From positions 71,191,554-71,255,553 of the forward strand of contig OX485803.1 in NCBI GenBank assembly GCA_950295325.1: a stretch of DNA of 64,000 nt, given 5' to 3'. The translations under genes and the position numbers were made by a program. Position 1 is the first letter of the stretch; each line of letters opens with the position of its first letter. Below, one piece after another: positions 4,713 through 49,724 of this stretch. Under the pieces are notes generated by a model that made no database searches, was not told the origin of the DNA, and worked only from the letters and a program-made list of their open reading frames with translations. The DNA comes from Polytrichum commune (lineage: Eukaryota > Streptophyta > Polytrichopsida > Polytrichales > Polytrichaceae).

Positions 4713-4734
4713 GTTTGGGTCGGTCGACCCAAAC
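4713..4734. repeat. P1 dyad in intron 3 of gene A
   Basis: 10-bp arm GTTTGGGTCG, two bases GT, then the exact reverse complement of the arm. It lies in the proposed intron 4301-4756 between the acidic exon and the phosphatase-like exon. Confidence 0.85.
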
Positions 4735-4756
4735 TGGGGAGGGCTCAGTGTATTAC

Positions 4757-7700
4757 CTCGCCCTGGTCATGTCTCGACAATGTGGAAGCCTCCACCGTCC
4801 CCGCTGCCCCGCCTCTCTCGCCACCGCCTTCTCCGACGACGTCAGGAACCTTCTCCTGCAAACGATCGGCATCAGGCCCTTGTCCTAAACCAATCTCCGC
4901 ATGTGCATCATGCATGCGTTCATCGATTTGGTTAGGAGTAGAGGTATCACCAGGCCCTTGCAGGCCTTCAACATCTAGCATGGCCGTGTCTAGTTGACAC
5001 CCATGTTGGTCAAGGGAGGACTGCGCTGCAACGGGGTTTGGGTCGCCCGACCCAAACTGTCCTGCATCTGGAGAGGGCCCTTCGGACACTCCAGTGGATG
5101 GTGGGTTTGGGTCGGTCGACCCAAACATCCTGGGGTCGTCCGCTTGGTGAGGGGGCGCCATGACTATGGGGGGCCGAAGTGGTGGAGGGCCCAAAGGGGA
5201 GGAGGCTCCAGAGACGCGCCAGATGTTGGGGTCATCCACTTGCTGGACCGGCGCATACGGAACTTGGTGGGGCCGAATCAAGTGCTGGAAGCTGAAAGAC
5301 GATTGCGGCACAGGCTGCTGAGGGATGCTCTGCGGAGGGAAGCCGGGGGGCAAGTGCGGGAAGGAGCTGGAGGGAGCCACCACCAAACCTTGCGCCCACA
5401 TTCCTTGTATCACTTGTGATATCAATTCGGCGTGGGACGGAGGTTGGGCCATCACCCTCTGTCGCTCCTGCTCCAACAGGAGAGCCCTCAGCTCTGCTAC
5501 CTCGTTCCGCATTGAGGGCTTTTCAGCAGCAGCCTTCTGTAGACAGACGCGTTGCTCCTCGTCCCTCCTCATCTTCTCGTTCGCCTCCTCCACGGTCAGG
5601 ACCTCGGGCTTCACCCTAACCATGCCAGCGAACGCTGTCGGGGAGGGGGGATCTGATCTGAGCCGTTTGGCGAGCTCAATATCATCGTCGTCCTCGCTGC
5701 TTATGGCAATGGTCTCCTCCACGGAGTAGTCGCCATACAGCTTCTTCCCCTTCAACTTCCTCCTCTCCCTGAACGTGGCGGTCGCGTCCCTGGAGTACAT
5801 GTCCCGTGCATCGTCCACAGTCAGGACGGGCACGAGCTTACTCTGCGGGGTTGCCGCCCGCATCGCCTTCTTCCGTTGAGGGGCTTCGGATTGTTGCGTG
5901 AAGCCCGTTGCCCCTTCCTCGACGTCGCCTTCCTTCTCCGCCTCCTCGTGTTCCTCTGCTTCCTCCTCCTCCTCCTCAACCTCGCCACCTTCTGTGCGGG
6001 ACGGATTGCCCGGATGCAACCCGACCAGAGGTTCGGGAACTTGGGTCGTGACCCTCATGGCCATTTCCTCCGGGTTGATGCGCCTCACCCTATCAAGAGG
6101 GTTTTCGCCACCCTGAACAACCTCGTCGACGTAGCTACCCGGGATCCAATCGAGGATGTCCATCTTCTTCGCCAGCGATTTCTGCACCCTATAAAATGGC
6201 AGATCGCCATCCTCTATGTAGGAGTATATATTCAGCCCCGACATCTACACAATCCAAGTTATAGGGAAATTAGAATTTGTCGAGGCAGTCACATATACAA
6301 GACTAAGTGAAATGTGTAGTTTGGGCCGGTCGACCCAAACCTGCAAAAAGCCTAGTTTGGGTCGGTCGACCCAAACCTGCAAAGAGCCTAGTTTGGGTCG
6401 GTCGACCCAAACCTGCAAAGAGCCTAGTTTGGGTCGATCGACCCAAACTGCTTACGAGCTATAGAAAGTCACTTACCATAGCAGCATAGACAGGTTTTGA
6501 GCCTCCGAAGACGTTGAAGATGCAGTCCCCTCTCCTCGTCAGCGTCCTCATCATTCTCATGTAAAATTCCATCCGCAGCTCATCTAAAGGATAGTTCGCG
6601 TATTTAGCCTCGTCGTAGAGGCACTTGTTGGCACCCAACCCTTCTGGAACTTGGAAGAGTTTGTCCATCCGGGATATAGGGTGGTTCGGCACCTTCAACA
6701 ACTCCGCTTTGTACACGAAGTACAAACACAAGACGTTGACGAACTTGGTCTTCTTGTCCCTCAACGTCGTGTAAGCCCCCTCCGCCGGTGCGGCGATGTA
6801 GTGAGACTTGGAGACTGCATACTCCGGCTGCAGTTTCCGGACAAGCTCGTACACCTGCTCCGCCCTCCTATCCTCGACTATCCAAAGCCAGATATCTACC
6901 TCCCTGAACTTAGGGCTTGCATAATCGACGAACTTAGATAGGAAGGGGTCATAGAAGAGGGTGCTCATTGTGCCCTCAAATGAGCTTCCAGGAATATTCC
7001 TGAAATCAATCATCCCAAAAGGAAAGCGGTCCCTTGCTTTTGTCCTTATCGCCATTCTGGCGTCCTGACTTGGCCAGCCCTGAATTTTCAAAGGCTCGAA
7101 GGTGACAAGGTTGAAGTAAGCGTCCCCTTCAAACTTGACAATCTTCTTCTCCTTGATGAAGTTCGAGAACGCACACGCTGTGTGATCCGGAAGCGCCCGG
7201 TTCTTCCCACCCTTCACCATCTTGGCCCGCAAGAAGTCGTCCCCCGCTTCCCTTATTAGAGCCGCCATGGAGGCACTGGTGAACTTATATTCATCTTTGA
7301 ATGCTCTCCAGTTAGCCTCATGAACCTCGCCGTCCACGACAATATTCCTCTCTGGCACCAATTTATGCAGCTCCTGCACGATAGTCGTCTTCTTTTTCCT
7401 GTTCTCCGTCCATTCCTTCATGGTGTAGCATGAAGGAACGAAGGATTTGGGCTTTTGGAAGACAATCTTCGGGTGCACCCAACACCTCTTCGCCGTGGGT
7501 GCCACGTGCAGGATGTGCGATGCCGCCTTCTCCACCTCCGTCTCTGACAGACCTTGAAGAGTTCTAAAGAACTCTCTCACGAGAGGCTTCATCTGCTTGA
7601 AGCGCGAGGCCAGGCTAAAGAAAGCGCCAGTGTCGGGGTCGATCAAATCCCCCGTCTCGTGCTTTTCAAACACGGTTTTCCACTTCCTCCAAACTGAGTC

Positions 7701-10700
7701 CGATGCTGTAATCAAGTAAATCTCCCCCTTGAGGTCGCTGTATTTCTTTTGCTTGTGGCTCGAATTATCAATGGAGGAGAATTTGTTGATCATTTGGTAT
7801 TTGAAATCCTGCACGTGAACAAAACAGAACATTTGAATGCGTGTTAGATATGTACATGTGATTTCCAAACCATATCATGACCAACATTTACAACAAGAGT
7901 TTGGGTCGATCGACCCAAACTAAATAAACAAGGTTGCACCAGGAGTTTGGGTCGGTCGACCCAAACAATACTCACCTCCCACTTGGGATTCTTGTCCTTT
8001 GCATTCTCCCTCTCCTTGGGAGGCCTACCATAGAACTCCCACACCTCCCGCGAGGCCATGATATTCCTTATCCAGGAAGCTTGGTAAGCCCTCTTCTTAT
8101 TTCCCATATTGAAGTACCGGGAGATGTCGCTGAGCTTGGTCTCGTCGTCAGACCACACCACCAGTGCCTTCCAAACCTTCAGCTTTTCCTTCTGATTGTT
8201 GGGATCATCCCACTCATTCATGAGTTGGATTTTCTTGGATGCCTCCACGCTGTGTTGGCCGTCTATCAGCCAAAAATCGCCCTTCTGAATTGTTGGCCAC
8301 ATTTCAGGTGTAGGCATTTTCTTGAGACCCTGTGGCATCACTACAATCGTTTGCCTGTCGTCTTTAAACTGCTCGCAAACGATCTGCGCGATTATCCAGT
8401 CAACGTAGGCGTCCTCCTTTGCCCGGACACACTTCTCCGGTGGCGCTAGATGGCACTGGCTGATGTTCACGTCGAACTTGCAATCCCTGCCCATGAAAAA
8501 ACAGTGGGAGCATTTCGTCGTGAAATTGTTCACAATTTTCTGCAGCTCCCCTGCATCCACCTCTTCGCCTGGCTTCGGCATGCGCATCTCCGGTGAGACT
8601 GGCTCGTCAGTCATCACAGATGACTCTCTCGCCCTCTTGGATGGAGTTGTTTGACGGCTCCCAGAAGGTGTAGGTGTCTCACTATTCGTAGGTGTTTGGG
8701 AGGGAGTGGTCCTACGCGAGTCAGCCGGTACTGGTAGCGGCATCCTCACCGATTGAGGTCTTGACGACCCTGCTCCTTCCTCTGTGGGAGCTTTCCGCCT
8801 CACAGGTTGCTGTGATTTGGTTTTGCTTTGCAGGCCCCTGTTCAGCACGGTTATTGCATGTTTTAGTTTTGTGAACCGGCTTGAGACCTTGGTATTCGAT
8901 GTACTCCCATCGATAAATATTGTCTCCGGCTTGATAACTTCCGGTTCGACACAGGATTCTCTTGCATAGAGTGCGTCGAAAGGCTCGGAGAACTGGTGCA
9001 TGAACATATGCGCGTTCTGCACAGCCGAGTTCTCGAGGATGACGTCGGTATAGTCTCCAAGAGACTGTACCGATGCGACCTCCCATCCCGCAAGAGTCGC
9101 CCAGGTGTGTTTCTCCACGGTTCCCACCTTGACAACAAAAATCATTTTGTATGTTGAGGCTTTGACTACTTGAATAGACCAAGCGAGGACAAGCCCGTCC
9201 TTAGGGGAATAGGAGTCATCCTGCGGGGTTTCGTGCTCCTGCCACAACATGTCCGGCGCAGGTGTGGTACTTTTGGGCCACCCCCTTTCGAGGGAGCCTA
9301 AAAGTATCACACAAGCCCTTCGGTGAAGGTGGCCTGCATTTGCAGGCGCCCAAGCCGAACCCGGATGATAGGTGTATAACGTGAGTAGTTAGATTTTTAA
9401 GGGAGATTAAATATGCGTCGTAGTACCTCCGGAGGTTAGGCCTTAGTTTTTTACTAGTGTGGCTTTAAACTCCACCAACCAATTTCATATCTAGTTCTAA
9501 CCTTAACCTACAACCTATTCTACGCGCAGACGCACCAGCCTTGAAACCAAGGCAATCCTAATTTGTGAATTGGGATGGTTCTGATACACCCAACCGGGTG
9601 TGACTCATACCACCCTAACTCAACGAACGGAATAACGACAATTTGATGGACCATTCAATTCTTCCTATTTCTTTATTTAGTTCTATTTAGTTTTCTAAGC
9701 GGGGGAACTTGGCCTAAGTCCCACCCTTCACACAAATTTTTTCTTAATTACTTACTTTTGTTTGCACGTCCTGACTTACTACATTAACATATTAGGCATC
9801 ACCCCTTACCTCGGGTCTCTTGCCAACAAGGGTTTACGATTTATTTTGTATGTTTTGATTGTTAAATGTGTTTACACTGGATAGACCACGAAATGCAACT
9901 CAATGGGACCAGGGTGACGGGCGACCTGTAGGTTCAACCTGTTGCGCAATCTTCATAAATTGGGGCCATTACTCCCAATCTATGGGGCCAACAACATAAT
10001 AGTGGATTCGCGGGTCATTAACCCCACCTTTCCACCAACAACATTCAGAGTGGTCGTGTCGGTGATTAATCCGACTTACCACACACGAAACTTGCTAATA
10101 AATGAAGCTACTACCACAAAACATACCAAGGGCCCCGAAAACAATGGAATTGGGTACTCCCTTGGCGGTCAAGTGGTCAAGCCACTTGACCTTACGAGAT
10201 AGGTGAGTGGGTTTAGAGATGCGTACCTTAGCCGTGCTCCCTCCGACCCTAAATGGAAGGCTTAAGGTTAGTTAATTTACCTCAATTTTCCTCGGTTGAT
10301 TTGGGCTTGATGTAGGCCGAGCCGCTACCTCCTTCCTTGCTCCACTTTCCGAGCGTCGACCTTGCCTCCTTCTTTGTAACTAGTTTGGTAGTAAGCGTAC
10401 CTTAGTTAACAATTAAAATATAAAGTGTTATTCTGCCCTGTAATTTAATCCTAAGCATAATATTTATACTTAGTGCACCAAATTATCTTTCCAATGATCT
10501 AAAAATCACTCTAATCGGATAAGAAATGCAAAAGTTATGAGGGTTGGAAGTGTGAGGTCGATTCAACCGACCCTTCCAACCCACCTATCTACCTTCTAAC
10601 TTCAAAAATTCATAGCACATTCCTTACTACTTGGATCTAGGCTTTCCTTATACCATTGGAAAGCTATGAACAAGCTCTAACTAGAAAAATTATGACATCA

Positions 10701-12174
10701 GCAGGTTAAGCTAATAGAAATTCAGCGGACTCCTTGTAACACAGCAGTCAATCAAGAAGGCTTAAACTATGTATCTCGCCTTCAACAATTCATATCTAAT
10801 TCAAATCTTAGTCAAATCAAACGTTCTATATGACCCTGGAGAGATATTAAAAATATGTATTTGATAAAAATATGTGATTAGAAAGGTAAGCCGAAGTGAA
10901 CCCAGCAGGTCCTCTGTAATGCAGCAGTCAACCAAAAGTTCTCAAACTATGTGTCCCATCTTGCACAATTCATATCTAATTCAAATCATGCTCAAATCAA
11001 ATGTTCTAAGCCATTTTGGAAAGCTACACAAAAGTTCTACTTGGAAAAAATATAATTTCTTGGAATTAAAATTCCTATTGGGCTCGCAGGTCTGATCCAG
11101 CAGCCGCTACCCACAAGACCACCCAGTTTTTTCTACTCCATCTTTGAAAATCCATAACTAATTGTCATCTCAACCAAATCACAAATGGGAAACGGCTATG
11201 GATGGCTATATGAAATCTCTCTAAGAGAAAAATGATAAGTATCTTGTTCTAGCTTTTGAACTAAGCCTTCAGGGCATTGGCAGATGAGGTCTATAATGCC
11301 TCTACTCAAAACTCTACCATCCAACCTACCTCTACAAAAGAAGGAATAATTTTGTTGGTGTGTTAATAAACACACAACCTAACTAGGAGAGAGAGAGTAG
11401 AGGAGGTTCTCAAGCCTTTCTTTTAGACCATTGAGAATACATGCTAAAGGATTTTTTCCTAACTACATTGAAGCAGGGCTTCGCCCAAAAACTAGAGAAA
11501 GAGAGAGAGCTACAAGGTGGAAGGAGGGGTTTTTAAACCCTCTCACAAAAGGGTTGGACCCCTCCTCCACCGGATCCATTTTTCAAACCCTTTCCCGAAA
11601 TTTTGGCTCGGGGGTTTTCCCGGTTGAGGTTGCCACCCTCTCGCCGAGGTGGCTCCGACAAAAAACCTTTAGAAATCTTTCTAATTTTTCCGCCATCGAG
11701 TTGGCAAGGGGGCAAGTGGGCAAGTATCCCCCTTGCTCTCTTTCTTTTTTGTCTTCAAAATTCTTCACGCCGATTTTTTCTTCTTACGTAAAACACCTCC
11801 AATAGTCTTGTGTGCCTCACACTAACTAATAAACTAACACTTGCTTAGCTAGCATTTACTAACATTTGCTTAATAGCTAGCATCTACTAATATTTGCTTA
11901 ATAACTAGCATCTACTAATATTTGCTTAGCTAGTTGTTTTTACTAGCTAGCACATTTTTTCTACTTTGCTATCTTCTAGCACTACTTAGTTTCATTTTGA
12001 CCTTCCTTCTTCTAGGCTAAATGCTAAATGAACTAATTTTCCCTAAATTCCCTATCAATTCTAACTTTTAATGCTAACATTCTAACTAAAAGTGATCCCG
12101 CAGAGTGGTGGACCACTCAAAGGGTTCACAGCAGGCATGAACCACCTTTCGCCGGGACTTTTCTTTGGAGCCAT
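4757..12174 (-). CDS. Gene A: ParB/DGQHR-like plus methyltransferase-like protein, split by a solo LTR
   Basis: The start ATG is at 12174, directly after a CAG acceptor, so the leader is spliced. Exon 1 runs 12174-12131, then 9257-7976 once the LTR and one GCAGG duplicate are discounted (442 codons). Exon 2 is 7808-6477 (444 codons) and exon 3 is 6244-4757 (496 codons). All junctions are phase 0 and no stop interrupts them, which supports the model. If exon 3 is not spliced at its end, it stops just beyond, at 4745. Around residue 347 is WLIDGQHSVEA, typical of ParB/DGQHR-type domains (nucleotide-binding DNA clamps or nucleases), with PPKERENAKD downstream. Exon 2 ends with FNVFGGSKPVYAAM and exon 3 opens with MSGLNIYSYIEDG. 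These match, with decay, the methyltransferase motif I region of gene M at the same exon junction. Exon 3 continues into an acidic run, predicted coiled coil and a Pro/Gln-rich region. An internal ATG at 9250 could give a product lacking only the first residues. Gene B is homologous through exon 2. Confidence 0.6.
4758..5126. repeat. Two P1 dyads inside coding exon 3 of gene A
   Basis: Full dyads at 5036-5057 (central bases CC) and 5105-5126 (central bases GT). In the gene A frame both encode variants of FGSTDPNP within a low-complexity region. The reading frame is kept, so coding sequence here tolerates, or was built from, the dyads. Confidence 0.8.
6319..6448. repeat. Cluster of four P1 dyads in intron 2 of gene A
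   Basis: Copies at 6319-6340 (one arm mismatch), 6355-6376, 6391-6412 and 6427-6448 (central AT, a perfect palindrome). They are spaced exactly 36 bp apart with CTGCAAAGAGCCTA-type spacers. The intron is only 232 bp (6245-6476), so dyads make up over a third of it. Confidence 0.9.
7899..7966. repeat. Two P1 dyads in intron 1 of gene A
   Basis: Copies at 7899-7920 (perfect, central AT) and 7945-7966 (central GT), 46 bp apart, inside intron 7809-7975. The second lies just inside the 5' splice site of this minus-strand gene. Confidence 0.9.
9263..12130 (+). mobile_element. Solo LTR, copy R1 (2868 bp), inserted in coding exon 1 of gene A
   Basis: Begins TGTGGTACTTTTGGGCC and ends GGGTTCACA, so it has the TG...CA ends of an LTR. 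The 5-bp target duplication GCAGG flanks it (9258-9262 and 12131-12135). No internal retrotransposon genes accompany it. It contains a partly duplicated stretch of roughly 200 bp (about 10735-10940) that R2 lacks. An 86-codon open frame at 9942-10202 recurs in R2 and R3 but begins with TTG and resembles no domain. Removing the LTR and one GCAGG restores the gene A frame, which dates the insertion after the last functional state of gene A. Confidence 0.85.
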
Positions 12175-13620
12175 CTGTAAGAAAATAATGTGCAAGGTTA
12201 GTTTCGGTCGTTCGACCCAAACATCTATGACATGAATAGGTTTAGGTGGATTGTGTATTTTTATATTTCAGCATCATTTGTAATGATAATAAGAATGTTG
12301 TGATTATTGGATGGATTTGCATTTTATATTGTTTGTGACATGCAGGATTCCTTGATACTTTTCTTTGATACATTCCTTGATTATTATTTTGGATTGATGT
12401 GAATTTTATATTGATGCAAAATATCATGGATTTCTTTATGAGTTTATAATTAGAAGACTTTGTTTGGGTCGCTCGGCCCAAACATGATGCTTTGTTTTGT
12501 GTTTGGGTCGAGCGACCCAAACAAGGGGCTGTGTTTGGGTCGTGTCCCCAAACAGTATTATTTTAATATATTTTTTAAACTTGGCATGTAGCATATACAA
12601 TGCTTATGCATTGTGTATGCTACAACACCGTGAATCTACAAACACATATTGGTTAAAATAAAATACAATACCTTTCAAAGATGTTGTGCAGACAATTTGG
12701 AGTAGAGCAGGTTGTTCTTCCAATAATTCTCAATATCAAACAAACTGTGAGAAAGTTCAATGAGAAACTTTCAAACAACTATCAACTCTCTCAAACAGCT
12801 TTTGGATCTCTCAACCAACTCCTGAATCTCACACAGAACTACTGAATCTCTCAAAAGACTTCGAAATGTCTAAACTAACTCCTGAATCTCACACACAACT
12901 ACTGAATCTCTCAAAAGACTTCGAAATGTCTAAACCAATTCCTGAATCTCACACACAACTACTAAACCTCTCAAAAGACTTCGAAATGCCTAAACCCACT
13001 CCTGAATCCCTCACAAAACTACTGAATCTCTCAAACGACTTCGAAAACTCTCAAACAACTCTTGATACTCTTAAAGAACTCTTGAATTTCACAAGCACTC
13101 CTAAAACTTCCAGTACAAACACCTGGACCTCCCAAACAGAAGCTTTATCTCCTACACAATGTTCTACTAACTTCCCTCAGCACTTTCCAACACTCTTCAA
13201 CAGTCTTGGATTAATTTCCTTCACACTCACGCTCGAAAACCCTCCTCCGTATGTTTCTGTTTCTTTCAAAATAAACCCTAACTTCCAAGATTGCACTGCG
13301 GCTATTCTATTGTAGAGCAAGAGGAAGGAGGGAAATAGAAGAATTAGAAGAAAACAAAACGCGGGTGAATGTGAAGAAAACCCACACCAAGCCTGAATCG
13401 CCGTGGCGCTTTGCGAAAGCGGCGCTTCAGGAGAGGCGGCGCTTCCAAGCAAAGCGCGGAGCGTAAGCTTGGCGCGGAGAGAGAGAGAGAGAGAGAAAGA
13501 ATGAAAAAATGTGACGGTTGGGGTTTTGTTTGCCTCGGGAATTGGCCCCCAACCGCATGAATAGGGTGCCCACAGGTTTAGGGCACCCACGGAAACAGGG
13601 TTACAGGGAACCCTAAAACC
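12175..13620 (-). promoter_or_regulatory. Leader region of gene A with P1-like dyads and a 60-bp minisatellite
   Basis: Because the gene A ATG directly follows a CAG acceptor, this region should hold a leader intron. It contains P1 or P1-like dyads at 12201-12222 (diverged), 12462-12483, 12501-12522 (central AG) and 12534-12555 (diverged). Further out, 12800-13070 is a 60-bp minisatellite (CTTCGAAATG at 12859-, 12919-, 12979-, spaced 60). Its plus-strand open frame (12866-13315) only translates the repeat. A (GA)n run sits near 13480. No TATA box could be fixed. Confidence 0.5.
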
Positions 13621-13844
13621 TAAAGCTTGACTCTAAACCCTTAGCGGGCCTACCTCTTTAAGAGTACATAGGCTATTTGCCTCATAGCATAGGTTGCATT
13701 CTACAATATCAACTTTTTGTAAGTTGAAAACCTTTTGAGTTTGTAAGTTCCTCGCCAATTGCCTTCAAAACTAATTTTTAGTAGGTTAAAATCCTTCATA
13801 TCTTTTAATGTTGTAGGTTTTAAAATCAAAATTTGAGTACTAAG

Positions 13845-13925
13845 TGGGATCCTTGGCAGGAATTGAACCTGGCTAAGCCTTTCACCACGTTTGAAGGCCA
13901 AGGATTAACCAAGTCTTTTTTAAAG
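13845..13925 (-). mobile_element. Possible tRNA-derived SINE fragment
   Basis: The minus strand contains GGTTCAATTCC, close to the internal B box of tRNA genes, about 40 nt after a CCTTGGCCTTCAAACG stretch typical of tRNA-derived SINEs. The acceptor and anticodon stems do not pair well, so this is not called as a tRNA gene. Confidence 0.3.
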
Positions 13926-15228
13926 AGTTGATTATAAGTTATGAAAGGTTGCTAAAATTCAAATGAGTTCAAGGGTGAAAGTTCTCACCATGTTCTCATT
14001 CAACCTCTACTCTTCCTGCAAGATATAGCCTAAAGATATGTACTTAGGCCAACTAATTTCCCAATTTGAAGAAGGATGAATGGCTAAAATCCTCTCTTTT
14101 AAAAAAAATTTAGGCAAAATTTCCTAAATGTTTTTTATCACATAGGTTGATATCCTATGTTTTTAAATTGTCCATAGGCTCTTTGTCCTACACTTTCAAA
14201 ATTTTATAGGCTAAGTCACTAATTTTGTAGGCTGCATTTGTTTTAATCGGTATATTCATTAATTTGGGATTTTTTCGGCATTTTGAGAAAGTTACAAATA
14301 TAAGAACATGGATAAAATCGCACGTACATTGGAGAATGTTGTAAGATGCAAATACTTTGAAGCGGGTGTTCATATCAAGAACGCAATTAAGATCTCATAT
14401 GAAGATGGTTTAGGTAGGACGACCCAAACATTACACTATGTTGTTGTGGTTCATATATTAATTTGAGAGAAGAGAAAATCTCAAATTAGCAAATTTTAGG
14501 GTTTAGGTTCTTTTGGACCCTGCTCTAAACCCTTATTAGTTTTTTCAAAAGAACTATGGAGTACCCTAAGGTGCTACATAAAATGTGTTATTCTACAAAA
14601 CTAACCATTTATATAGCCAGCGCATTCTTACAACAAAACTTTATGCTAAACTAATACTTATCCCCTACTTACATGACACCATACCCTAAATTTTCCAAAA
14701 TCATTGAAGGCATTGGTTTCTCTTTTGTTTGAGCATGTTAGAAAAACCATATAATTGCGTTATATTTAACGATGTAACCATTCACATTTAGTCTTTACCA
14801 ATGATGCCAACAATTCACACGATATTGAATGAAAAAAAAAAGATTACACACACCCCCCAACATGTGGAACAATTTAGAATAATTGAGTGTGGAGCCTAAT
14901 AAATGAATACCTTCCCCAACTGCATTTTGCAAGGGTTTTGAAATGCACGATCCTTATTTGAAAATGCGAACATGCTCAAGTTTTAAGTACATCCCTTAGA
15001 TCGTGACTTTCACGAATCACATAGTCGCCAATAAATCATGGTTCATGATATATTTAATATATAGATTGTGATATAAGAGTAAATGGGATAAGCACAACAT
15101 CAAATGAAGCCATTCAAGCAATCATGTTGTTATTCCCTGTTCCTTCCATGTATATTAGATGATGGCGCAAGATAAAATAGATGTTGTTTGTATATGGGGG
15201 CATCAGTGAACCACAACTACATTTGGTG

Positions 15229-15256
15229 TTTAGGGTTTAGGGTTTAGGGTTTAGGA
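15229..15256 (+). repeat. Interstitial plant-type telomere repeat
   Basis: About four TTTAGGG units in tandem; a shorter run lies near 15992-16008. This unit is the usual telomere repeat of land plants. Confidence 0.8.
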
Positions 15257-16379
15257 GATAGGAGATAGGGTTATAACATATTAATCTATCCAATGTTAAT
15301 GTATAACATTGTCTTACTCGTGAGAAGAGTCTTATAGGAAGGTTATAGTGAAGACGATGTTGATTATGTTAATTTGTTATTTGAGACGTTTAAACGCGAT
15401 ATATTGATTGGTCGTGTGTTTATTCAAATAACATGAAATATTGTGGATGTTAATAGGGGTTATGGGTCCAACTTTGGATGTTTCGCTCACTTTAGGGAAT
15501 CACATATTAGTCGCTAATAAACCATCGTTCATGATGTATTTAATATATGGAATGTCATGTAAAAGTAAATCGGAGAAGCACAACATCATGTTGTTATTCA
15601 TTGTTCTCTCCACGTGTATTAGATAATGGAGGAAGATATAACAGATATTGTTTGCATAATATTATGAAGAAGAGTCTAATCGGAAGGTCATAGTAAATAC
15701 AATCTTGATCATGTTAATATGTTATATGGGACGTTTAAACATGATATCCTAATTGGTTTTGTATTTAGTCAATGCGTATTTCATGTTGTGGATGTTATAA
15801 GGGTTTAGGGTCCAATCTTGGATGTTTTGCTCTCACACATTAGTAAACTTGAAGTGAACTTGAGGATGGATTCAAGTAACATTAAAAGATTGAACTAGAA
15901 AGGGACATTGGTAGTTAGTATCCCCTTAACAACGTCCACATACGTTCGTCATTGCCACTCTTGCATGCGAGATAATAGAGCAAGGTTCTAGGGTTTAGGG
16001 TTTAGGGGGGACAAATAAATAATTCTATTCATCATGACAATGGCCTCAAGCCTTGGAAACTCTCTCATAATTGCAGCCTCCAAATGGCCCAAACCCCACC
16101 TAAATAGGTTTACACTTGAAAGCATTGAATGGAGTTGTGTTTGGATCTACATATTGGTTAAAATATACCTTGATGATACTTGAAAAAATTAATGTGGCCG
16201 CCACCCTTCCTCCCAATGGCGTATGTCATATCCACACAAAACAAAACAAATAGATTAAATAACATAGACTAAGTCATATGACGGCTGGGGTATCATAGGG
16301 GCATTGATAGATGCGCATTTTTCTATTATAAACAGAAAACGGGGAATTCTGTCAGGAGGTTTGAAATAACCTCTGCAAG

Positions 16380-16470
16380 AGAAGAAGGCGGGGAAGGCAT
16401 CCAATGACTAAGTCTGGGAAGCGGAGGTGGATAGTATAAAGGGGCGCACCCCCAAAAGTCGGTCCTTTTT
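16380..16470 (+). promoter_or_regulatory. Core promoter of transposase element T1
   Basis: CCAATG at about 16401, TATAAA at 16435-16440, then GGGGCGCACCCCC and a T-rich tract. The same order, in related sequence, occurs before T3 (AGTACTTAAGGGGACACCCCCC at 48271-48292, then ACTCTTTTTGC). Conservation between two diverged elements supports a real promoter with transcription starting about 30 bp after the TATA box. Confidence 0.55.
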
Positions 16471-32470: not shown

Positions 32471-32489
32471 GCAGGTAGAGAACAACGCA

Positions 32490-34397: not shown

Positions 34398-34429
34398 GTG
34401 AGTTCTCTCCTTTCATGATACAGTTTTAT

Positions 34430-39245: not shown

Positions 39246-41859
39246 AGTCTCCTCCACAAGCTCCTTGGGGTGTGGTGGGGACAACGAGTAGACTTTCCTG
39301 AACACCTTGTGAGGTTTAATAGGCAGTCGCCCAGTTGGTGAAGACTTGCGTGTCAAGAAATAAAGTTGCACGGCCCCCACTTGCTTCACCCCCCTTGCCT
39401 CTTGAATAACAGTGATCCCTTCTGTCTTCGCCGGGATGTAGGTGTTGTGGTACAGATCGTATTCGAGGTCCATCGTTGATGTGTATAGATGGACAACGGA
39501 TGTGGACCTCTCTTGCTCTACAATCCATAACCACACATGAGGCTCGAAGAGGGCAGGCGAGCGATAGCTCTTGAATGCTTTTAAAAAGGGGTCGTAGAAG
39601 GGTGCTCCCGCAACGTCTTGTTTCCAAGCTCCGGGAATCGCACGAAAATAAAAAATGGCGAAAGGGCAACCCCGAGGGTCATCTCTCACAGAGGCTCTTG
39701 AAGCATGGGTGTCCCATGTGCCGAACTTCAGGCCCTTTGTGACCGTGCAGAATCTCGCAAACCCTCCGAATTTCGTTTTCTTTTTCCTATTGAGAAAGTT
39801 CACGTACAACCCTGCCTCCCTCTCGTCAATGGATCCCTTCTTTTCGTTTCTTCTGGATCGTTGGGCAAGGAAGGATGATGCCCCTCTTATCAAAGCTCGC
39901 ATGGACACGCCATTGATGTGGTATTCACCCTTCAGCTTCCTCCAATTCTCCCACACGATCTCACCATCGCTATTTATGAGGTTGTGGGAGGGTAGCAATT
40001 TGCTTATCTCCCTTATAGCCATGGTCTTCTTCTTCCTGTAATCGCACCATTCCTTAATGTGGTACGTAGAGGGCTTCATATGCTTCGGCCTCTTCAGAAA
40101 GATTTTAGGATAGGGCAGAGTCCTTCTAGGAGTCCCTAGAAGGATGTGTTCTGCTGCCCTGTACAGCTCTGAGTCCATCAATCCTTGGAGGGGACGAAAG
40201 AACTCTCGCAGGATTGGTGGTACCTTAATCTTTGAATCGCTCTTGTACATGTTCTCCGTATCTGGATTCACAAGGTCCCCGTTGTTGTGGGCATCGAAGA
40301 GTCGCAACCATATTGCCCACGTCTCCTCTGTTGCAGTGATGAGCTTGAGTTCACCCTTTAATTCATGCACTGTCTTCATGCCGCTTGTCTTCATGTCTAT
40401 ACTCGAGAACTTTGTCAAGATGGCATTGCTGAATGTCTGCAAGAGGCATGAATTGCAAGAAATTAGTACATCGAAATTAGTAGACATTAAATTCAAAGAA
40501 TTGAAGCAGTGGAACGAGAAGGGGCAGGTTTATGGACGTGCGTCCGTAAATATATATGAGTGACATACCTGCCATTAGGGTTCTTGACGACTGCATTGTC
40601 TCTTTCTTTTGGGGGACATTCGTGCTCCACCCACAAGGTCCTCCCAGCCACGATGTTGGCTGCCCATGAAGCCTCGAACTGCCTAACTTTATTTCCTTGG
40701 TTCATGAAAGCAGATATTGCTATGAGCTGGTTAGAGTCCTTGGAATGCACGACGAATGCCTTCCAATATCGGATTGTTTCCTTCAATGGGTTTTTCCACT
40801 CGTCGTCTTCAAGGAGAGCTTTTGCAGCCATCACACTATGTTGGCCGTCGACTATGTAAAACTCTCCATTCTTGAGAATTGGCCAATTTTTCTCGTTGAC
40901 TTCTACTATAGGATCCTTTGGTGTGACACAAATGGTCTGCCTGTCAAATTTGGGGTTGTTCATGGTGTTGTTCATTTGCCACCATACCCCGCTTTCTTCT
41001 TTCGCTCTGGTATTCATACTCTTGGTGCCCTTGTGGCATTTGTAGACGTCTACGTCGAAAGTGAAATACCTGCCCAGCGGCCAGCAACCCTTTGTCTTCT
41101 CATCGAATTCTTGGAAGATCTTTGTGAAGAGTTCGGCGTCAGGGCGTTGACCATTTTTAGGAGAGGAACGACAGTTAGTGTGGAGCTGACATCTGGACCC
41201 TCTTTTAGCCCAGATGACTCCATCTGCGAGTGAGAGTGTTTACTCGTCTGTCTGCTCCCTCTTGATGCACCACTCTGCGAGGGCCTTGAGGTTTCTGGCA
41301 CAGGTTTGGGCACACGCTTGGGTCGTTCAGAAACGACTTGTTTCTTCTTCTCCTTCCCCTTTCTGGCCTCTAGCAACGCCCCATTCACTCTTGTAACATT
41401 GTTCAAGAGTCGTCCAAGCCGCTTACCCGTCCAAGGTGCATTGCATGCATAGTCTTGGAACTCCGTCTGGAGATTGAAGCAAGCCGCATCTGTACTAGCA
41501 TTTTCACATTCATTTTTGTTGAAGGGGTGGTAGGATTCATGCAAAATGAATGTGACCCGATCTTCTTTCTTCTCAAGGTCAATAACTACATAGTCCCCTT
41601 GGGCCACTGCACACTCTACTATCCAGGATTTAAGCTTTATCCACTTTTCGGCTTCATCTATGTCCGACTTAATTTGATATGTAAATCTAAGCACAAATAT
41701 CTCTTTCTCGTCCTTCTCTACCAGTACTGTCCAATTATCTACAATTTCATCTTGTGGCTTGTAGTGGTCGTTGGGGCTGATGTCTTTGATATCTTTTGGC
41801 AGCGGAGGAATGAGAGCCTCTGCGAACATCTCAATTGCGTGTCTCTTTTTAGATGCCAT
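39246..41859 (-). pseudogene. Gene B: ParB/DGQHR-like plus methyltransferase-like protein, truncated
   Basis: Homolog of gene A. ATG at 41859 follows TTGCAG, as in A (both begin MA-KK). Exon 1 is 41859-40569 and exon 2 starts at about 40436 or 40428. FYIVDGQHSVMAAK (D codon at 40849) and CPPKERDNAVVKNP match A, and exon 2 aligns with A along its length (for example KFSSID, YDPFL, VWLWIVE). The reading frame shifts by one base near 41165-41210, before NGQRPDAELF. Exon 2 stops at the LTR junction 39245/39246, before methyltransferase motif I; the acidic and phosphatase-like exons of A have no counterpart here. Its leader and intron carry P2 instead of P1. Confidence 0.6.
40528..40551. repeat. 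P2 dyad in intron 1 of gene B
   Basis: Slightly diverged P2: arms GTTTATGGACG and CGTCCGTAAAT around TG, inside the intron between the two gene B exons, at the place where gene A has two P1 dyads. Confidence 0.75.
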
Positions 41860-41916
41860 CTGCAAATGGTGACATACACAACATGTTCGAATTATGGTCA
41901 ATGGATGTAGATCTAA

Positions 41917-42682
41917 CTTTACGAACGCGCGTTCGTAAAGTTTTGCATATTCTATCAATTATATCTTTTAAAGAATGTTATAGTGAATACGCAAATCGCG
42001 TACATTATATGCTCAATCGCGTACATTATATGCGCGTCCGTGACCTCTGTACATATATGATAGAAAATGATGTGCTTACTTATATATGTCTAGTTTACGG
42101 ACGTGCGTCCGTAAACTCTGCACATATATTATATACAGAATTAGTTGTCATATATGCCTAGTTTAGGAACGTGAATCTGTAAAGTTTTCAATCATTTTAT
42201 ACTATTGACAAATCTCTATATGTTACGGACGGGCGTCTGTAACCTCGACATATATTATTCAGTGAATTATTACTTATTTTGCCTAGTTTACGGACGCGCG
42301 TCCGTAAACTTTTCAAATATTTTATTCAGGAAAAGTTTATGCTACTTACAATTCTTTTGATGTTACGGACGTGCGTCCGTAAACTACTCACATGTATTAT
42401 TCAGTGGATTATTACTTATTTTGCAAAGTTTACGGACGCGCGTCCGTAAACTTTGCAAATATTTTATTCAGGAAAAGTTTATTCTATTTACAATTCTGTG
42501 GAAGTTACGGACGCGCGTCCGTAAACTCCGCATATATATTGTGTGAGGGTCTTCTTTCTCACCCACACAAGGTCCATAAAGTTTACGGACGCGCGTCCGT
42601 AAACTCCGCATATATATTGTGTGATGGTCTTCTTTCTCACCCACACATGGTCCATAAAGTTTACGGACGCGCGTCCGTAAAC
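41917..42682. repeat. P2 dyad array in the leader of gene B
   Basis: Consensus: arm GTTTACGGACG, two bases CG, reverse complement (24 bp, perfect palindrome). Good copies at 42093-42116 (central TG), 42286-42309, 42428-42451, 42581-42604 and 42659-42682, with near-perfect ones near 42362 and 42504 and diverged ones near 42163 and 42225. The copy at 41917-41940 has arm CTTTACGAACG and is still perfectly symmetric. The array lies just upstream of the acceptor that precedes the ATG, so it is probably in a leader intron. Confidence 0.88.
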
Positions 42683-44170
42683 TTTAAGGGGTTTATTGGT
42701 TACTGTAAATTAAACATTCTGGAGCATTTGCGGAATAGGTTATTTTCATTAATGACCCGCATTTTTCGGGATTTTACCTTGTCTTCTAATATGGTATTGC
42801 TCTCCAAAGAATGCAATATGGCACAGCACTGCAATAGCAACCTCTGCACTGCAAAATTGAGAAAATTATACCCTTTCAGAACACTGACATGTCCAAAACT
42901 AAATGATTCTTAGAGCCTGGCGATATGCAAAGTACCAAACAAATTCAGAATTGCTTGAATGTGGAATCTCACTTGCTCTCAAGGTTGTTGGAGCTCACAT
43001 GCTTTGAAGCTAACCTTAAGCCCTAAACCACAACAACCAAAGAGTGCAATCATACAAAATGCGATTGCAATGTTATAGAAATGTTACCTTTGTAGAATGT
43101 TTTCTCCTGCTCCTAAACTACAACTCCTACTCGTGCTGCAGGTAAAACCGACTGCAAATCAACAATATAATTGAGGTTAGAAACCTCGAGTAATGCAATG
43201 GTACTCCTAAATTGCATCGAAACCACAAAAAAACCCTACTACAAACATTAAACTGGATTGAACATGGACATCACATTGAAGTGTCCTTTCAAAACAAAAC
43301 ATGTGATTTCTTTGATCTTGGAAGAGGCAAAGATTTCAATAGGAAGAGAAATGAACAAGGCCTACAAGATCCCCAAAACAATGAAATTGAACAATGAGAA
43401 TGACAAAATGAGAATGACAAAGGAGAATGAGCATTGACAAAGGAGAATGCAATTGCAATGTCATTCTACACCAGCAAGACCAGCAAGAGCAACAAAAAGA
43501 CCAGCATGTTGATCACAGCATGAACACCAGCAAGAGCAACAAAAAGTATGCGAACACAAGGTTACCTGAAGAGCAAATATGTGGAAACCTATGTACATCA
43601 AAGGATAGCGCCAAATAACTTTTGGCAGATCATGGGGTAGCCGAAAGAAACCATACACAAGTAAATATATTCTCTGCAATAAATCAGTCCAACTGTTAAT
43701 GTAATCCAGCTTCAACAAGGAGCAACTTAAAACCAACCTAAAATATTTAGATCAAGCAAGAAAGAAAAGAAGATAAACACTCATCGCTATCTATCACTGG
43801 AAGGTGTGGTATGCTCTCTAGAATGTAAATGGGTTGAGGTTTTCTCCACACCTGAATCCCAGCAAGAGCACGAAGCAGCAGGAACGAAGAGAGCATGAAC
43901 ACCAGCAAGAGCAGCAAGAGCAACACCACAAAGAGAGCAGCAAGAGCGAAGAGAAACGAAAACGAGGAGGGCGAAAATGAGCTCCTGAAAACCCTAAAAC
44001 CCTAATGAGGAACGAGGGCCTCCAATCGCCCCGACCCCAAACATCGCATCACCCCGCGCCCAAACGCCACGCGTTCACCACACGTGGCATAACCCTATTC
44101 GCCTAGCCATTGTGGTTTGTGTGTGTTGAGAAGAGATTGGAGTACATGCTCAAAAATTGTTAACCATCTA
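42683..44170. other. Upstream region of gene B and intergenic DNA
   Basis: No gene recognised. 43470-43560 and 43860-43950 contain CAGCAAGAGCAACA-type low-complexity repeats whose open frames are repeat translations. The promoter and first leader exon of gene B should lie here but could not be fixed. Confidence 0.4.
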
Positions 44171-45973
44171 CACCCTAACCTTGATAATGTCACACCCTCC
44201 GTTTCACCAAAAAGTGTGATATAAACAAGGTGTGACATACTTGATAATGTCACATTTTGTGCATAATGTGATATTATAAAAAAATATGTAGAAAATCAAA
44301 ATATAATTACAATTTTTAAAAAAAATACGAGACTTCAATGTTTCTGAATGTAAAATCTAATTCAAAATTGTGAATAACAACAAGAGCACATCATAATGTG
44401 TCATTGAGATCAGGTAAAGACCTCTCACTAGAGACAAAGAAGCTTCTAATGTCACATTGTTTTGTTGATGTTAAATGTGCAACACCAATTCTAATGAGTT
44501 TGTCATGGATTTTTTCCATTTCTAACAACTCATGAGTGCTCAAAATATGAGAACCTTGGCTAGCCATAAAATTCAAAACATCTTTAGCATATTTTTGTGC
44601 ATTGCTTAGCTTCACTACTTTAGACTCATCATCACTGCTATCAACAATCAACGGGTCCACTTCCATGGAATCAAGAACCTGTTCGCCATCTTTGCACTAA
44701 TTGCACAAACTTCTCAATAGAAAATTCCACCTCAAAATCATCTTCACCTTCCATGTTTATGTACTCCAAAGGACAAAGCTTTTCTACAGGCTTGCCTTCA
44801 ACATCCAAACCCAAATTTAATGCGGCGATGAGTCTACCCAATTTCAAAGTTGCTTCCTCCATTTTGGACTTCATACGTTCATCAAGATTGTTTATATCTG
44901 CATTCCACTCTGCAGGCAATATGGCGGACTTTCTCCAACAATTTCTAATGGTTTGATCATCTAATTCATGCCATGCCGCCACACACCATAGCATAGCTTG
45001 AAATACATCAACATTCAATTTCCCCAAATCTTCATTTGAGTTGTTATCAATTTGTTGCAAAGTCCAGGCAACAAGCTTGCGCTTATAGCACATTTTGAAT
45101 GCTGCAATCACTCCTTGATCCAAAGGTTGAACAACTGAAGTCACATTTGGTGGAAGGAACAAGATAGTGATATGGGAGAGTACAAAATCATTAAACCCAT
45201 CTATAACTTTCTTGACCTCACCATGAATATCATGGCTTCTTGCAAATTGCTTCTCGGAAATGTTTTACCAGCTCTAAATCTTCAAGGTTAAGAGGCATTT
45301 ATCGACATTGGAAATGGCTACTGAAGGAATGCAACTAAGGTGCTTACCATGTGTGCGCCATCTTCAACGGTAGCCACAAAATCCTCAGGAACCACCGATT
45401 GATCAACTTCCACCTCACAATGCAATTCTCTGAAAATGCCACAGAATGAATGCCAATAGTCTAAGTTTGAAACAGAGAAATCAATTACAAGGTCTTCAAC
45501 ACCGAACTGATTCAACAAGCCTCAAAGCTTCAAAAGTACCATTTAGGAAGAAACCTTGTGGATGCAGCAGTTTGTTGAGGAGAGTGGCAAGAAGATGAGG
45601 GGCAGAGCGGTGTGTGGAGCGGCGAGAGGAGAGAGCATACGATGCAGGCAGAGCTGCGAGAAGTTGATCTGCGAGAGAAACCGTTGCTTCTTCAGCACAT
45701 GAGATTCAAGATTCAAGAACCCAAGATTCAAGCGGAAGCATGTGAAGATGCCGACGTCATCCATAGAATTTGTTGTCCATCCGGCCTTTTTTCATCCATG
45801 TTACTTGTTATTATCACACTTACACTACAAATTTTGAAAAAAAAATGTGACATTATCGAGGGTGATAGTGATAATAACGAGGGAGTTTTACACTATGGAA
45901 ATCGGTTTCAAACTTTTAGGTGACAATATCAAGGTGTTCTATTAACAAGTGTGATATTATCAAGGTTAGGGTG
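44171..45973 (-). mobile_element. pogo/Tigger-type DNA transposon with TIRs
   Basis: Left end CACCCTAACCTTGATAAT and right end ATTATCAAGGTTAGGGTG are matching terminal inverted repeats (about 24 bp, one or two mismatches), flanked by TA on both sides (44169-44170 and 45974-45975). That is the target duplication of the Tc1/mariner/pogo superfamily. The minus strand carries a transposase remnant. Confidence 0.85.
44391..45180 (-). pseudogene. pogo-type transposase remnant (C-terminal DDE part)
   Basis: FLPPNVTSVVQPLDQGVIAAFK is diagnostic of the DDE_1 domain of pogo/Tigger/jerky transposases. NCWRKSAILP and the end KQCDIRSFF also fit. A one-base frameshift near 44670 separates 44671-45162 from 44391-44666. 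The N-terminal DNA-binding part is missing or decayed (45181-45900), so the copy is inactive. Confidence 0.8.
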
Positions 45974-48260
45974 TAGACGCAATAGTCAAACATAATTGCG
46001 TAGACCTGTATCATCTTTTGATAACTGATGAGAGAATATTTATTTCGACAATGGATGAGATATTTAAACAAACTTTGAATTTCATGAAGAAAGTTGTTAT
46101 AGGCACGAAATGGATTTGCTAATCATATCGCACTAATGACGTTTTCCACTTTTTTGCGTCAATGGAATACCACATGTACTATATTAAGATAACGATAGTC
46201 TAGAATGAAGTTAAGTAAAAGCACATAGTTCATTATTTTTGCGTTAATAGATTTGCAAAAATAACATGCGTTTACATGGTTTAGGGTTTGTTACATGGTT
46301 TGTTACATGGTTTAGGGTTTGCCTCATAGAAGAATTGAATTGTTACAAAGGAGGGATTTCTCATGTGATAATTGTCAATATGTGGTTTAGCTTATTGACG
46401 CAATTCATGAATTTTCTGATTACGTTGGCCAAGATTGGGTAAAAGGCTATACCAGGACAACTTAATTCAAAATCATAATTAATCTAAGAATGTCAACAAT
46501 TTTGATTAATGTTGACTACATTGTAAATTTCAAGTTACACTAATTTTTTAAAATTAAATGCAAGGGTATGGACTATACCCAAGTGCCCCCGGTTTTGGTA
46601 AGTAAATGGCCTACTCACTGCCGGATTGTTGTTTGGGTAATTAGAGTGAGGCGAGTGGTTGTCAACATTGCATGTATTGATACATAGAGATTTTTTAAGT
46701 TTATACCCCTAATTGATAATCTAATTGTCAATGTTACCACTACATAAAGTGAAATAATCATGTGTTTGTTTCAATAAAACTTAATTGTGACACCTAAATG
46801 ATACCAAAATAGTCTTTTAAAAGTATGGTAACCATCACGGTTCAATAGTCAACATAATTGCGGGGACCTATATGAACATTTCATGAACATGAGAATCTTC
46901 ACTTTTGATATTAATGAGTGAAATATTCATACGAGCTCTGAAAGAATTCATTATTCTAGGAAACGTAAAAGTATTGAAATTATAGGATGTGAGGTTGAGT
47001 AACTCAATTATTGTAAGATTTTCTTTGTGGAGTTGTTGTAATATAAAGGTAAGCGGGCTTTAAATAATGCTATGTTTGGCTCACATGAAAGGATAACAAG
47101 TCCCGTCTAAATCTTGTACTTGCCTCTAAGGGGTAGATTTTACCCAGCCAAAGAAAGATTTAAAATAATGAAAGGCAAGGTTACCCATAAATTTGCTTCA
47201 CTTTTGAAGTGTTTATGGTTTTATTTTACAAAATTTAAAGGTAGTCATATAGTTTTGAATTACTTCCACTTAAGCCTTGACATGTATTGGAAGTTATTCA
47301 GTTAACCATGCTTGCACTATGTCCTCGTGTTTGTTTATGGTTGGGCGGTTATAGGGTTTAGGGTATCACGTATGAACTAATGAGAGTATCCCCCTTCTGT
47401 CACCAACTTAATATTGCTTGCCTTAATAATATTTGGATACCCTACCCTCCCCTTCTCTCTATAATGTTACTTTGAACAACAATTGCTATTGTTTGAGTCA
47501 TTGCTATAGATAATGTACTAAAAATTGTTTTTTTCTCACGTATAGTACATGAAGAAGGCTAGTATTAGTTTTTTTGAAATAAATGTTGATGTATTGAAGG
47601 GGGCCCTAAGGTTAAGAGAGGAAATTGACAATATTGATTTTAATGCAACCCATAGTACCTATGACAATAGATGTGCTACTTTCATGTGCTACTTTAGATG
47701 TCCTCAAAGTTTGTGTACGTATTAATACAATTATGTATAGGTGTGTAAAGGTGGGTAAATTAAACGGGTTAAATGTTAGGGTGGTGGCCAATGTAATTAC
47801 GATATTAAATGCAAGATGAGAGGAGATAACATGATATTGGAGTGAATATCATTACATTGTATGCAAAACAATAAAATGGATGCTAGTTTAATTTTGAATG
47901 ACATGTATTTTTATACTCCATGCACTATTGTTGTTGTTGTGGTTTATTTTTTACACGATACTATAATGTTCTGTCTACTAATTCTACAATGACCTCTCAA
48001 TATTAGGTACTTCAATATTATAAACCACACCTCAACAATGTTCAATGCTCATATATTATTAGCCAATTTGCTTTGTTGTCCACCATAAATACATAGATGC
48101 CTTTTGTTTTGTCATTATGTGGACTCATGGTCTATGCATGTTGTCCACTATGAATACACATTCCATTGTAAGGCTGGCACTCGGAATGTAGTAATGTTAG
48201 GTTTTTATTTATAGGACGTAGTTGGTGGCGAGTATCCTATGTTGGAAAACGGATCCAAGG
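45974..48260. other. AT-rich intergenic DNA without recognisable gene
   Basis: Only short open frames without domain signals. A TTTAGGG-related stretch (TTACATGGTTTAGGGTTTG) repeats near 46275-46320. Confidence 0.5.
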
Positions 48261-48264
48261 GAAA

Positions 48265-49718
48265 ACGATGAGTACTTAAGGGGACACCCCCCCACTTCGG
48301 GACTCTTTTTGCATCTCAGATGTGGGTTGCGCTGCTTGGACCCTTGTAGTGTGCTGGATGTTTATTTTGTGCAGGTACAGATCTTATTGCAATGGACCTT
48401 TTATACCCTAAACACTAAATTCCAAGCCCTAAACCCATTAGTGGAGGCAATTTTTATGTGGGTTGCACTCTCTGGATCCTTGTAGTGTGATTGATTATTA
48501 TTTATGGCAGGTATCGTTCCTGGTGTAAGGTTCCTATTATGGCGCCGCAAATCACGGAGGTTTACGGACGCGCGTCCGTAAACCTTAAACCTCTTGGTTA
48601 ATTGATTATCTATTGCTCTGAGAACTGTACTTGATCTAGTACTCATGTACATTGAGGTTTACGGACGCGCGTCCGTAAACCTTCGTACCTTGTGGTGCCA
48701 TAGTTCGGTGTTGCACCTGAACTGGGATCATTACCACTTGCCTTTTAGAGTATGCAATCGAGACTGTAAATTTACGGACGCGCGTCCGTAAACCTTCAAC
48801 CTCTTGGTTAATTGATTATCTATTGCTCTGAGAACTGTACTTGAGCTAGTACTCATGTACGTTGAGGTTTACGGACGCGCGTCCGTAAACCTGCGTACCT
48901 TGTAGTGACATAGTTCAGTATTGCACCTGAACTGGGATCATTACCACTTGCCATTTAGAGTATGCAATCGAGACTGTAAATTTACGGACGCGCGCCCATA
49001 AACCTTAAACCTCCGGGCGCTTTGTTCCTTTGTTGCCTTGAGCATTGTCTTTGTGCTCGTACTGAGGTCCAGATAGGTTTACGGACGCGCGTCCGTAACC
49101 TGCAAACCTCTGGTGCCATAGTTTTGTGCCATGTAGAATATTACGTTGAGACTGTACGGTCAATGGAGGCATAAGATCCCTAAACCCTAAACTTACATCA
49201 CCCTATGTCTCATAGTATAATATTTTGACATTCATAAAATACACTAGGAAGCGCGTATGTTAACCTCTTCAAACTCATAGTCGTCAGGCTTGGGTAAACA
49301 TGTCCGTGGCACCTGGACCTCTTGGGTCCCTAAACCTCTATGTGTCTTGGACAACACTGGCTTTTGACATTTGGATGTTTTCGGACGCGCGTCCGTATTC
49401 CTAAGTTGTATAGTTTGCGGAAATATTTGCGCATGATAATGACCTCTTTGATCACGAAGAGATTTACGGATGCGCGTTGTCTGGACCTTTCCGCAGACTA
49501 TGAACAAATAAATGTATTTGTATACGCGTATGCTTGCACTGATAATGTTGTTACATGGAGGTATACGAACGCGCGTTCGTATACCCTAAACCCTTTGTTT
49601 CCAGGCCATGAAATCCATTATTGTTCACATTGTGTTTCATTGACAATAAGCGTTAGGCCTATCCATATCATTTATTGAATGGGATATTTTAACATACTCT
49701 TCGTTTGGATCACTTGTA
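48265..49718 (+). promoter_or_regulatory. Promoter and leader of T3 with a P2 dyad array
   Basis: The TTAAGGGGACACCCCCC box near 48275 matches the T1 promoter. P2 dyads follow at 48560-48583, 48657-48680, 48770-48793, 48867-48890, about 48980 (diverged), about 49077, about 49377 (diverged) and 49560-49585. Two 210-bp units (48584-48793 and 48794-49003) carry the first ones. The dyad at 49560-49585 has altered but still fully symmetric arms (GGTATACGAACG and its complement). An acceptor CACTTGTAG at 49711-49719 precedes the ATG. Confidence 0.75.
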
Positions 49719-49724
49719 GTGGCC

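Follow-up and report, generated by a model that had tools for sequence, protein, structure and literature searches.

The VANDAL transposons of Arabidopsis are Mutator-like elements. They encode VANC proteins, which carry the DUF1985/DUF287 domains and bind a short motif (YAGTATTAY) repeated, often in tandem, in introns and upstream regions; binding leads to a loss of methylation, and related VANC proteins have different targets which have co-evolved with the motifs (PMC5735166). The main text of that paper does not call the motif palindromic, as the string "palindrom" does not occur in it. Here we analysed 64,000 nucleotides of the moss Polytrichum commune (GenBank assembly GCA_950295325.1, contig OX485803.1, positions 71,191,554 to 71,255,553 of the forward strand), hereafter the window. 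It contains three genes, termed A, B and C, each accompanied by its own family of palindromic dyads, termed P1, P2 and P3. The initial annotation had described the genes as ParB-like and proposed that protein and site co-diverged as in ParB-parS. Genes A and B are parts of high-copy transposable elements, and it appears somewhat probable (roughly 0.55) that the protein encoded by each transposon family recognises the family's own internal dyads, a VANC-like self-recognition that would keep the genes of the element expressed.

The three private dyad families are real, as had been claimed. A scan of the window allowing up to 3 mismatches detected 28 sites of P1 (GTTTGGGTCGNNCGACCCAAAC; 19 exact; positions 4713 to 20289), 15 sites of P2 (GTTTACGGACGNNCGTCCGTAAAC; 8 exact; 40528 to 49400) and 21 sites of P3 (GTGTCTCGGNNCCGAGACAC; 4 exact; 27896 to 36217). 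The three families occupy separate, non-overlapping stretches, many of their dyads are arranged as tandem arrays, and 100 dinucleotide-preserving shuffles for each yielded 0 matches every time. With the exception of three (2084, 40121 and 53657) all perfect inverted repeats with arms of at least 9 in the window are P1, P2 or P3 sites or symmetric variants of P2. The arms of P1 are constant while the two central bases vary, and the inner core of the dyads of A and B is CG-NN-CG. The symmetric P2 variants include two dyads of a fourth type, P4 (TTTACGAACG-NN-CGTTCGTAAA), which differs from P2 by one base per arm. Each P2-type region of the window has one such dyad nearest the gene (41915-41942 and, with 2 mismatches, 49560-49585), an exception inside the P2 elements.

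The genome-wide count proposed in the initial annotation was carried out on one strand of the 408 Mb assembly (64 contigs, seven of them large). Exact matches amounted to 9231 for P1, 1147 for the P2 22-mer, 997 for P3 and 2909 for P4, and the reversed-pattern control of each had 0. Twelve dyad types were seen in the genome, namely P1, P2, P4 and nine in the C families.

The P1 dyads belong to an element with the following features.

3375 to 24087, no strand assigned: P1 element (E1), left end truncated, with two long terminal repeat (LTR)-like insertions within; 95-98% collinear with a copy at C1:2114168-2129768
24060 to 24087, minus strand: right terminal inverted repeat of the P1 element, 28 bp, identical to the left end in three copies
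4745 to 9261, minus strand: gene A, encoding a DGQHS-motif protein; part of exon 1 at 7976-9261, exon 2 at 6477-7811, exon 3 at 4745-6244 (open frames, splice sites)
20468 to 23295, plus strand: DUF7869 gene, presumptive transposase; exons in 20468-21985 and 22072-23295 (Pfam DUF7869, E-value 6.3e-41, second exon)
3455 to 4219, minus strand: open reading frame for a NIF/FCP1-like phosphatase (Pfam NIF, E-value 1.7e-13)
4713 to 7966, plus strand: 9 P1 dyads past the stop and in exon 3, intron 2 and intron 1 of gene A (dyad scan)
12201 to 12522, plus strand: 3 P1 dyads upstream of gene A, in its presumed leader (dyad scan)
16745 to 20289, plus strand: array of 15 P1 dyads ahead of the DUF7869 gene, split by an LTR-like insertion (dyad scan)

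Gene A and the DUF7869 gene are thus encoded divergently on opposite strands, together with the NIF-like phosphatase frame. Similarity at the right end stops at one identical base in the window and in the 11 copies fetched (7 paired, 4 single) of 40 scored among 1013 candidates, and the flanks are unrelated. The complete element measures about 16.6 kb. In all three copies examined at both ends its 28-bp terminal inverted repeats are identical and 4 bp of the target (GTAT, AAAA and ACAA) are duplicated, as is to be expected of a cut-and-paste DNA transposon; its ends start with AACACTATATTCG. The two LTR-like insertions of the window element are missing from the copy at C1:2114168-2129768. A genome search with gene A scored 150 places of 912 candidates, with identities of 94-100%.

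Two P1 dyads lie in a coding exon of gene A and are read in frame (5036-5057 and 5105-5126), and one is located just past the stop (4713). The initial annotation had located the dyads of A and B in equivalent places; intron 1 and intron 2 were assigned correctly, while the leader of A is presumed from position only, because the 5' part of the gene is broken by an LTR-like insertion. The main competing explanation is a simple autoregulation, in which the protein at the dyads represses or activates its own gene and the DUF7869 gene with no anti-silencing role. It would account for the dyad clusters ahead of both genes, but sites in introns, in a coding exon and past the stop are more than promoter control needs, and we consider it possible but doubtful. 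That many dyads lie in presumed leaders and introns might also indicate that the palindromes act in RNA, as hairpins affecting splicing or giving rise to small RNAs. However, large arrays occupy the spacer ahead of the DUF7869 gene and the arms are just two bases apart, so that a role in RNA is hardly to be expected.

Gene B is located in a related type of element, of which the window contains several parts.

39201 to 41858, minus strand: gene B, encoding a DGQHS-motif protein, frameshifted, 3' end cut by the insertion 36405-39245 (open frames, alignment to A)
40528 to 42682, plus strand: P2 dyads of gene B, located in its intron 1 (40528) and its leader (42093-42682); P4-type dyad at 41915-41942 (dyad scan)
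48560 to 49585, plus strand: P2 dyad array (P2 sites to 49400) preceding the second DUF7869 gene of P2 type, with a P4-type dyad at 49560-49585 (dyad scan)
49719 to 53697, plus strand: DUF7869 gene and right end of a P2-type element (Pfam DUF7869, E-value 1.3e-29; terminal repeat)
24088 to 27824, plus strand: 3' portion of a P2-type element that the P1 element has cut; includes a DUF7869 gene and ends with the right terminal repeat (91% identical to 49819-53697)

The proteins of A and B are homologous, as had been stated, sharing 36% identity over a 908-column alignment. A genome search with the protein domain of B scored 150 places of 885 candidates with identities of 100-58%, forming groups near 83% and at 58%; the latter represents a third subfamily, B3.

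The dyad type largely follows the subfamily of the neighbouring protein, a linkage whose examination the initial annotation had suggested. The coding motif DGQHS had 671 matches in the genome compared with 27 in the reversed control. From 100 listed places, all on contig C1, 40 loci were fetched, a non-random choice spread over the codon signatures, and the domain was recognised in 35 of them; neither the domain nor any perfect palindrome containing CG and having arms of 9 was present in the remaining 5. The set was extended by loci picked from other searches, namely one of A, two of B3 and three of B. When each dyad was assigned to the nearest type with up to 3 mismatches, all 118 dyads of the 13 A loci were P1 and 258 of the 259 dyads of the 25 B3 loci were P4 (1 tie). 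The 3 B loci contained 58 dyads, comprising 49 P2, 3 ties and 6 P4. These six P4-like sites, which deviate from the linkage, are all found in B locus L005 (L005:240-1161), past a terminal-repeat-like end at 3565, and probably belong to a neighbouring element. Dyads were absent from the A locus L038 and the B3 locus L067, whose domains are partial. Furthermore, 17 of 22 multi-site dyad clusters contained or adjoined the cognate gene (P1 3 of 5, P4 4 of 5, P2 6 of 7, P3 4 of 5), as judged by eye from positions only in the part of C1 covered by the matches listed. A tree test required 2 changes for 3 labels (0 of 200 shuffles), leaving out L038 and L067, which have no dyads, and partial-domain loci such as L039, L046 and L063; it adds little, since the labels were entered by protein class and coincide with the dyad seen in the dyad-bearing A, B3 and B loci.

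The dyads are better conserved than the intron sequence around them. In intron 1 the dyad columns are 91% identical compared with 60% elsewhere among 10 of the 13 A loci (window included), and 94% compared with 67% among 20 of the 25 B3 loci, where one row (L063) was mis-cut; these columns were chosen where at least half of the rows fit the dyad pattern, a choice which itself favours conserved columns. The comparison bears on the idea that the dyads are passive repeats, generated by tandem duplication and gene conversion within a family and read by no protein. The many tandem arrays are in line with such an origin, the link between site and family would follow from descent, and a graded relation between protein and site is lacking in C. 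Nevertheless, the dyads are kept while the DNA between them diverges, the two central bases vary while the arms do not, symmetric variants occur and palindromy recurs in nine C-type dyad types, which makes passive repeats improbable. Outside the dyads 40 of 48 CpG changes between two P1 copies are transitions, pointing to methylated DNA.

Gene C and its dyads are part of a second kind of repeated element.

32409 to 34398, plus strand: gene C, encoding a DGNHRR-motif protein; first exon 32409-33134, probable further exons downstream (open frames)
27896 to 36217, plus strand: 21 P3 dyads around gene C (dyad scan)

A genome search with gene C scored 150 places of 1208 candidates, with identities of 100-41%. 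Judged by position, P3 clusters were present at 4 of the 6 listed copies with at least 80% identity on C1 below 19.9 Mb. From the places listed at up to 75% identity 20 C-type loci were fetched, of which 13 carried a dyad of their own family; together with the window they provided nine dyad types, P3 included. They are given below as half-sites, the other arm being the complement after two bases, and some copies are imperfect.

L072: half-site GTGTTTCGG
L085: half-site CCCTCTCGG
L084: as L085 with one arm altered, GGGTCTCGG; imperfect palindrome
L086, L088 and L091: half-site ATCCCACGG; one site per piece, further ones upstream of L086
L087: half-site AGGCCTCGG
L089 and L090: half-site CACTGTCGG
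L081: half-site GGGTGCCGT
L083: half-site TATTGGCGG
L080 and L082: half-site AATTCTGCA

Among the dyad-bearing C loci, pairs with at least 84% identity share the dyad or nearly so, while pairs with up to 75% do not. An inner CGG-NN-CCG core is present in 7 of the 9 types and the outer part is variable. In 6 of 11 C sequence sets an exact palindrome with arms of 7 recurred with an identical arm (10, 4, 4, 3, 3 and 2 copies), compared with a maximum of 1 in 40 shuffles of each and in six control stretches; the other 5 sets failed this strict count. The edges of the L085 element show a 16-bp inverted repeat and no target duplication.

The DUF7869 protein presumably is the transposase of the P1- and P2-type elements. 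As the protein-place lists comprise 150 of about 900-1500 candidates, all proximity counts are lower bounds: at least 32 of the 150 listed DUF7869 places have a listed A or B place no more than 15 kb away, where 200 random draws gave a mean of 3.4 and a maximum of 10, and 25 of these 32 are divergent. A second class of DUF7869 genes consists of 692-amino-acid open frames with many near-identical copies genome-wide, and the four listed on C1 adjoin no listed A or B gene.

This linkage, together with the layout of two divergent genes and many short sites as in En/Spm, would fit a function of the dyads as sites of the transposition machinery, bound by a TnpA-like co-factor or by the DUF7869 protein in the manner of the subterminal repeats of CACTA elements. 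However, full P1 dyads are missing from the left 1.47 kb and the right 3.8 kb of the P1 element, and due to this absence at both ends a role like that of the TnpA repeats was not our first choice. Moreover, the P1- and P2-type terminal repeats differ in 2 of 22 bases although their dyads differ widely, so a different protein is to be expected for the dyads than for the ends. One examined C-type gene has 14 dyads and no match to the DUF7869 protein in the surrounding 22 kb, indicating that the dyads go with the DGQHS/DGNHR gene. Transposition sites therefore appear unlikely, and we infer that the A, B and C proteins rather than DUF7869 read the dyads, which accompany them with or without DUF7869.

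Self-recognition as favoured here would thus involve several families of DNA transposons, each encoding a DNA-binding protein (A, B or B3, and C in the second kind of element), which would read the palindromic dyads of its own family as a symmetric dimer. The dyads are internal, ahead of both genes and in introns, in P1 also in a coding exon and past the stop, and not at the ends. The bound protein would most likely keep the genes of the element expressed, either by transcriptional self-activation or by countering silencing by the host as VANC does for VANDAL. Site and protein would have diverged together, so that each family serves itself only. More speculatively, the shared design might reflect a dimer with a fixed inner contact and a freely re-coded outer contact acting as a private address; if the ParB fold were true, the protein may load at the dyads, spread over the whole element and protect it from silencing.

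The term ParB-like, which the initial annotation had applied to all three genes, is supported by the short DGQHS/DGNHR motif alone. In a genome search with the Pfam profile ParB_N (PF02195) none of these genes was matched; the matches over the cut-off were four places on the minor contigs C10, C12 and C23, which may be organellar or bacterial. Sub-threshold scores were obtained for the profiles phrog_1033 ParB-like (E-value 0.18 for A, 0.38 for C) and TIGR03187 DGQHR (E-value 0.35 for B3). An hhalign comparison of A/B with C aligned 18-20 columns at the DG-H motif only, with a probability of 2.9-3.9%; uniting A/B and C in one family was therefore not adopted. Sequence searches of the PDB had no credible match, and the VANC domains DUF1985 and DUF287 were not listed by the Pfam scan of the A, B and C exons. 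A ParA gene was not seen within the element, although no search was aimed at it.

Several observations weigh against self-recognition. As to the proteins, hmmscan of the A, B and C exons found no Pfam match over the cut-off, with ParB not listed, and the AlphaFold2 models were poor, with a mean predicted local distance difference test (pLDDT) score of 48.1 for C and 40.5 for A; these low-confidence models contain a strand, the DG-H motif and a helix in succession and nothing further. Linked inheritance within an element alone would produce the subfamily linkage, and only two changes separate P1, P2 and P4. Five of the 22 multi-site clusters are without a cognate gene among the matches listed; they may represent non-autonomous or decayed copies. 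Their positions are C1:640864-646099 for P4, C1:462875-478028 and C1:2154319-2159887 for P1, C1:25983483-25984032 for P2 and C1:468608-471946 for P3. CpG sites changed at 1 of 77 positions in dyads and at 55 of 831 outside (a P1 pair and a B3 pair), a difference that is not significant (p 0.079).

The remaining contrary observations concern C. Judged by position, two of the six listed gene C copies on C1, both of 84% identity (80356 and 2514092), have no exact P3 site nearby, and 7 of the 20 C-type loci (L073-L079, the 67-74% tier) are without a convincing dyad; L074 and L075 show a weak palindrome only, and two of the seven contain a stop codon. At least 5 of the 150 listed DUF7869 places lie within 15 kb of a listed C place, none of them divergent (random mean 1.7, maximum 5). 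Half-site distance and protein distance were not correlated, neither across nine C families (Spearman 0.16; 3832 of 5000 permutations as low) nor across 13 C loci (Spearman -0.06; 1370 of 5000 permutations). Consequently, the co-divergence of protein and site proposed in the initial annotation holds in so far as the dyad types follow A, B and B3, and does not extend to a graded relation among the C families.

If self-recognition is true, these elements would be an independent second case in which transposons encode a sequence-specific protein for recognising themselves and the targets co-evolve with it, here with clean palindromic sites and with a single genome providing many specificities. 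The twelve protein-site pairs, most of the C ones with a fixed core and a variable outer arm, would represent a natural experiment on the change of DNA-binding specificity and a possible source of programmable epigenome tools, and they provide a test case for the reasons why the recognition systems of transposon families diverge.

The elements of the window are nested. The P1 element stops (24087/24088) exactly within the DUF7869 gene of a P2 element, and the P2 element itself terminates (27824/27825) beside P3-type repeat DNA. The two P2-type DUF7869 copies share the position of a stop codon (25993-25995 and 51723-51725), where the P1 copy apparently encodes tryptophan. A subterminal inverted repeat is located about 17-18 bases from the right end of both element types (P2 53657-53680, P1 24048-24069), the two differing from each other. 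For the P1 repeat a Helitron reading was considered and dropped upon finding the matching left terminal repeat and the target duplications. A fragment of a DDE_1 transposase gene was detected at 44671-45162 (Pfam E-value 1.6e-15).

The window also contains four copies of a 2.7-3.0 kb TG...CA sequence resembling a solo LTR, two of them with 5-bp target duplications.

9262 to 12130, minus strand: first copy of LTR-like insertion S (TG...CA), not present in the C1 copy of the P1 element; 5-bp target duplication
17079 to 19738, plus strand: second copy of LTR-like insertion S, lying within a P1 dyad; 5-bp target duplication

The others are located at 36405-39245 and 56842-59867. The copy at 36405 has unlike flanks and bridges P3 DNA and gene B, as if recombined.

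A literature search of limited depth on plant transposons with ParB or palindromic sites and on the superfamilies of moss DNA transposons found no such system described, and within the same limits no paper on DUF7869 came up. Bacterial ParB-parS has a DG-H motif, and its sites are palindromes of comparable length; in contrast, the present genes have no Pfam ParB_N match and the sites are many and dispersed in mobile elements. Since the genes sit in transposable elements, each site moves along with its element. The closest parallel known is not ParB-parS, as the initial annotation had assumed, but the transposon-encoded VANC. CACTA (En/Spm) elements have ends that start with CACTA and a 3-bp target duplication, from which the P1 element differs in both its end sequence and its 4-bp duplication. 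En/Spm TnpA is similar in that a two-gene transposon carries many short binding sites, but the dyads described here are internal and not subterminal.

The VANC system of VANDAL21 shares with the present elements a private motif repeated in noncoding parts of the encoding transposon and different motifs in related families. The two systems differ in that the protein here is of the DGQHS/DGNHR type, the A and B elements possess a DUF7869 gene and duplicate 4 bp of their target, and each site is a palindrome of about 16-24 bp. Furthermore, binding and hypomethylation were demonstrated for VANC, whereas the moss system is known from its sequence. The match to the VANC system is close in layout, though not in protein family, element type or site symmetry. 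Based on this similarity in layout a VANC-like role is proposed with moderate confidence for the A, B and C proteins, which presumably bind their dyads as dimers and exert an anti-silencing or activating function.

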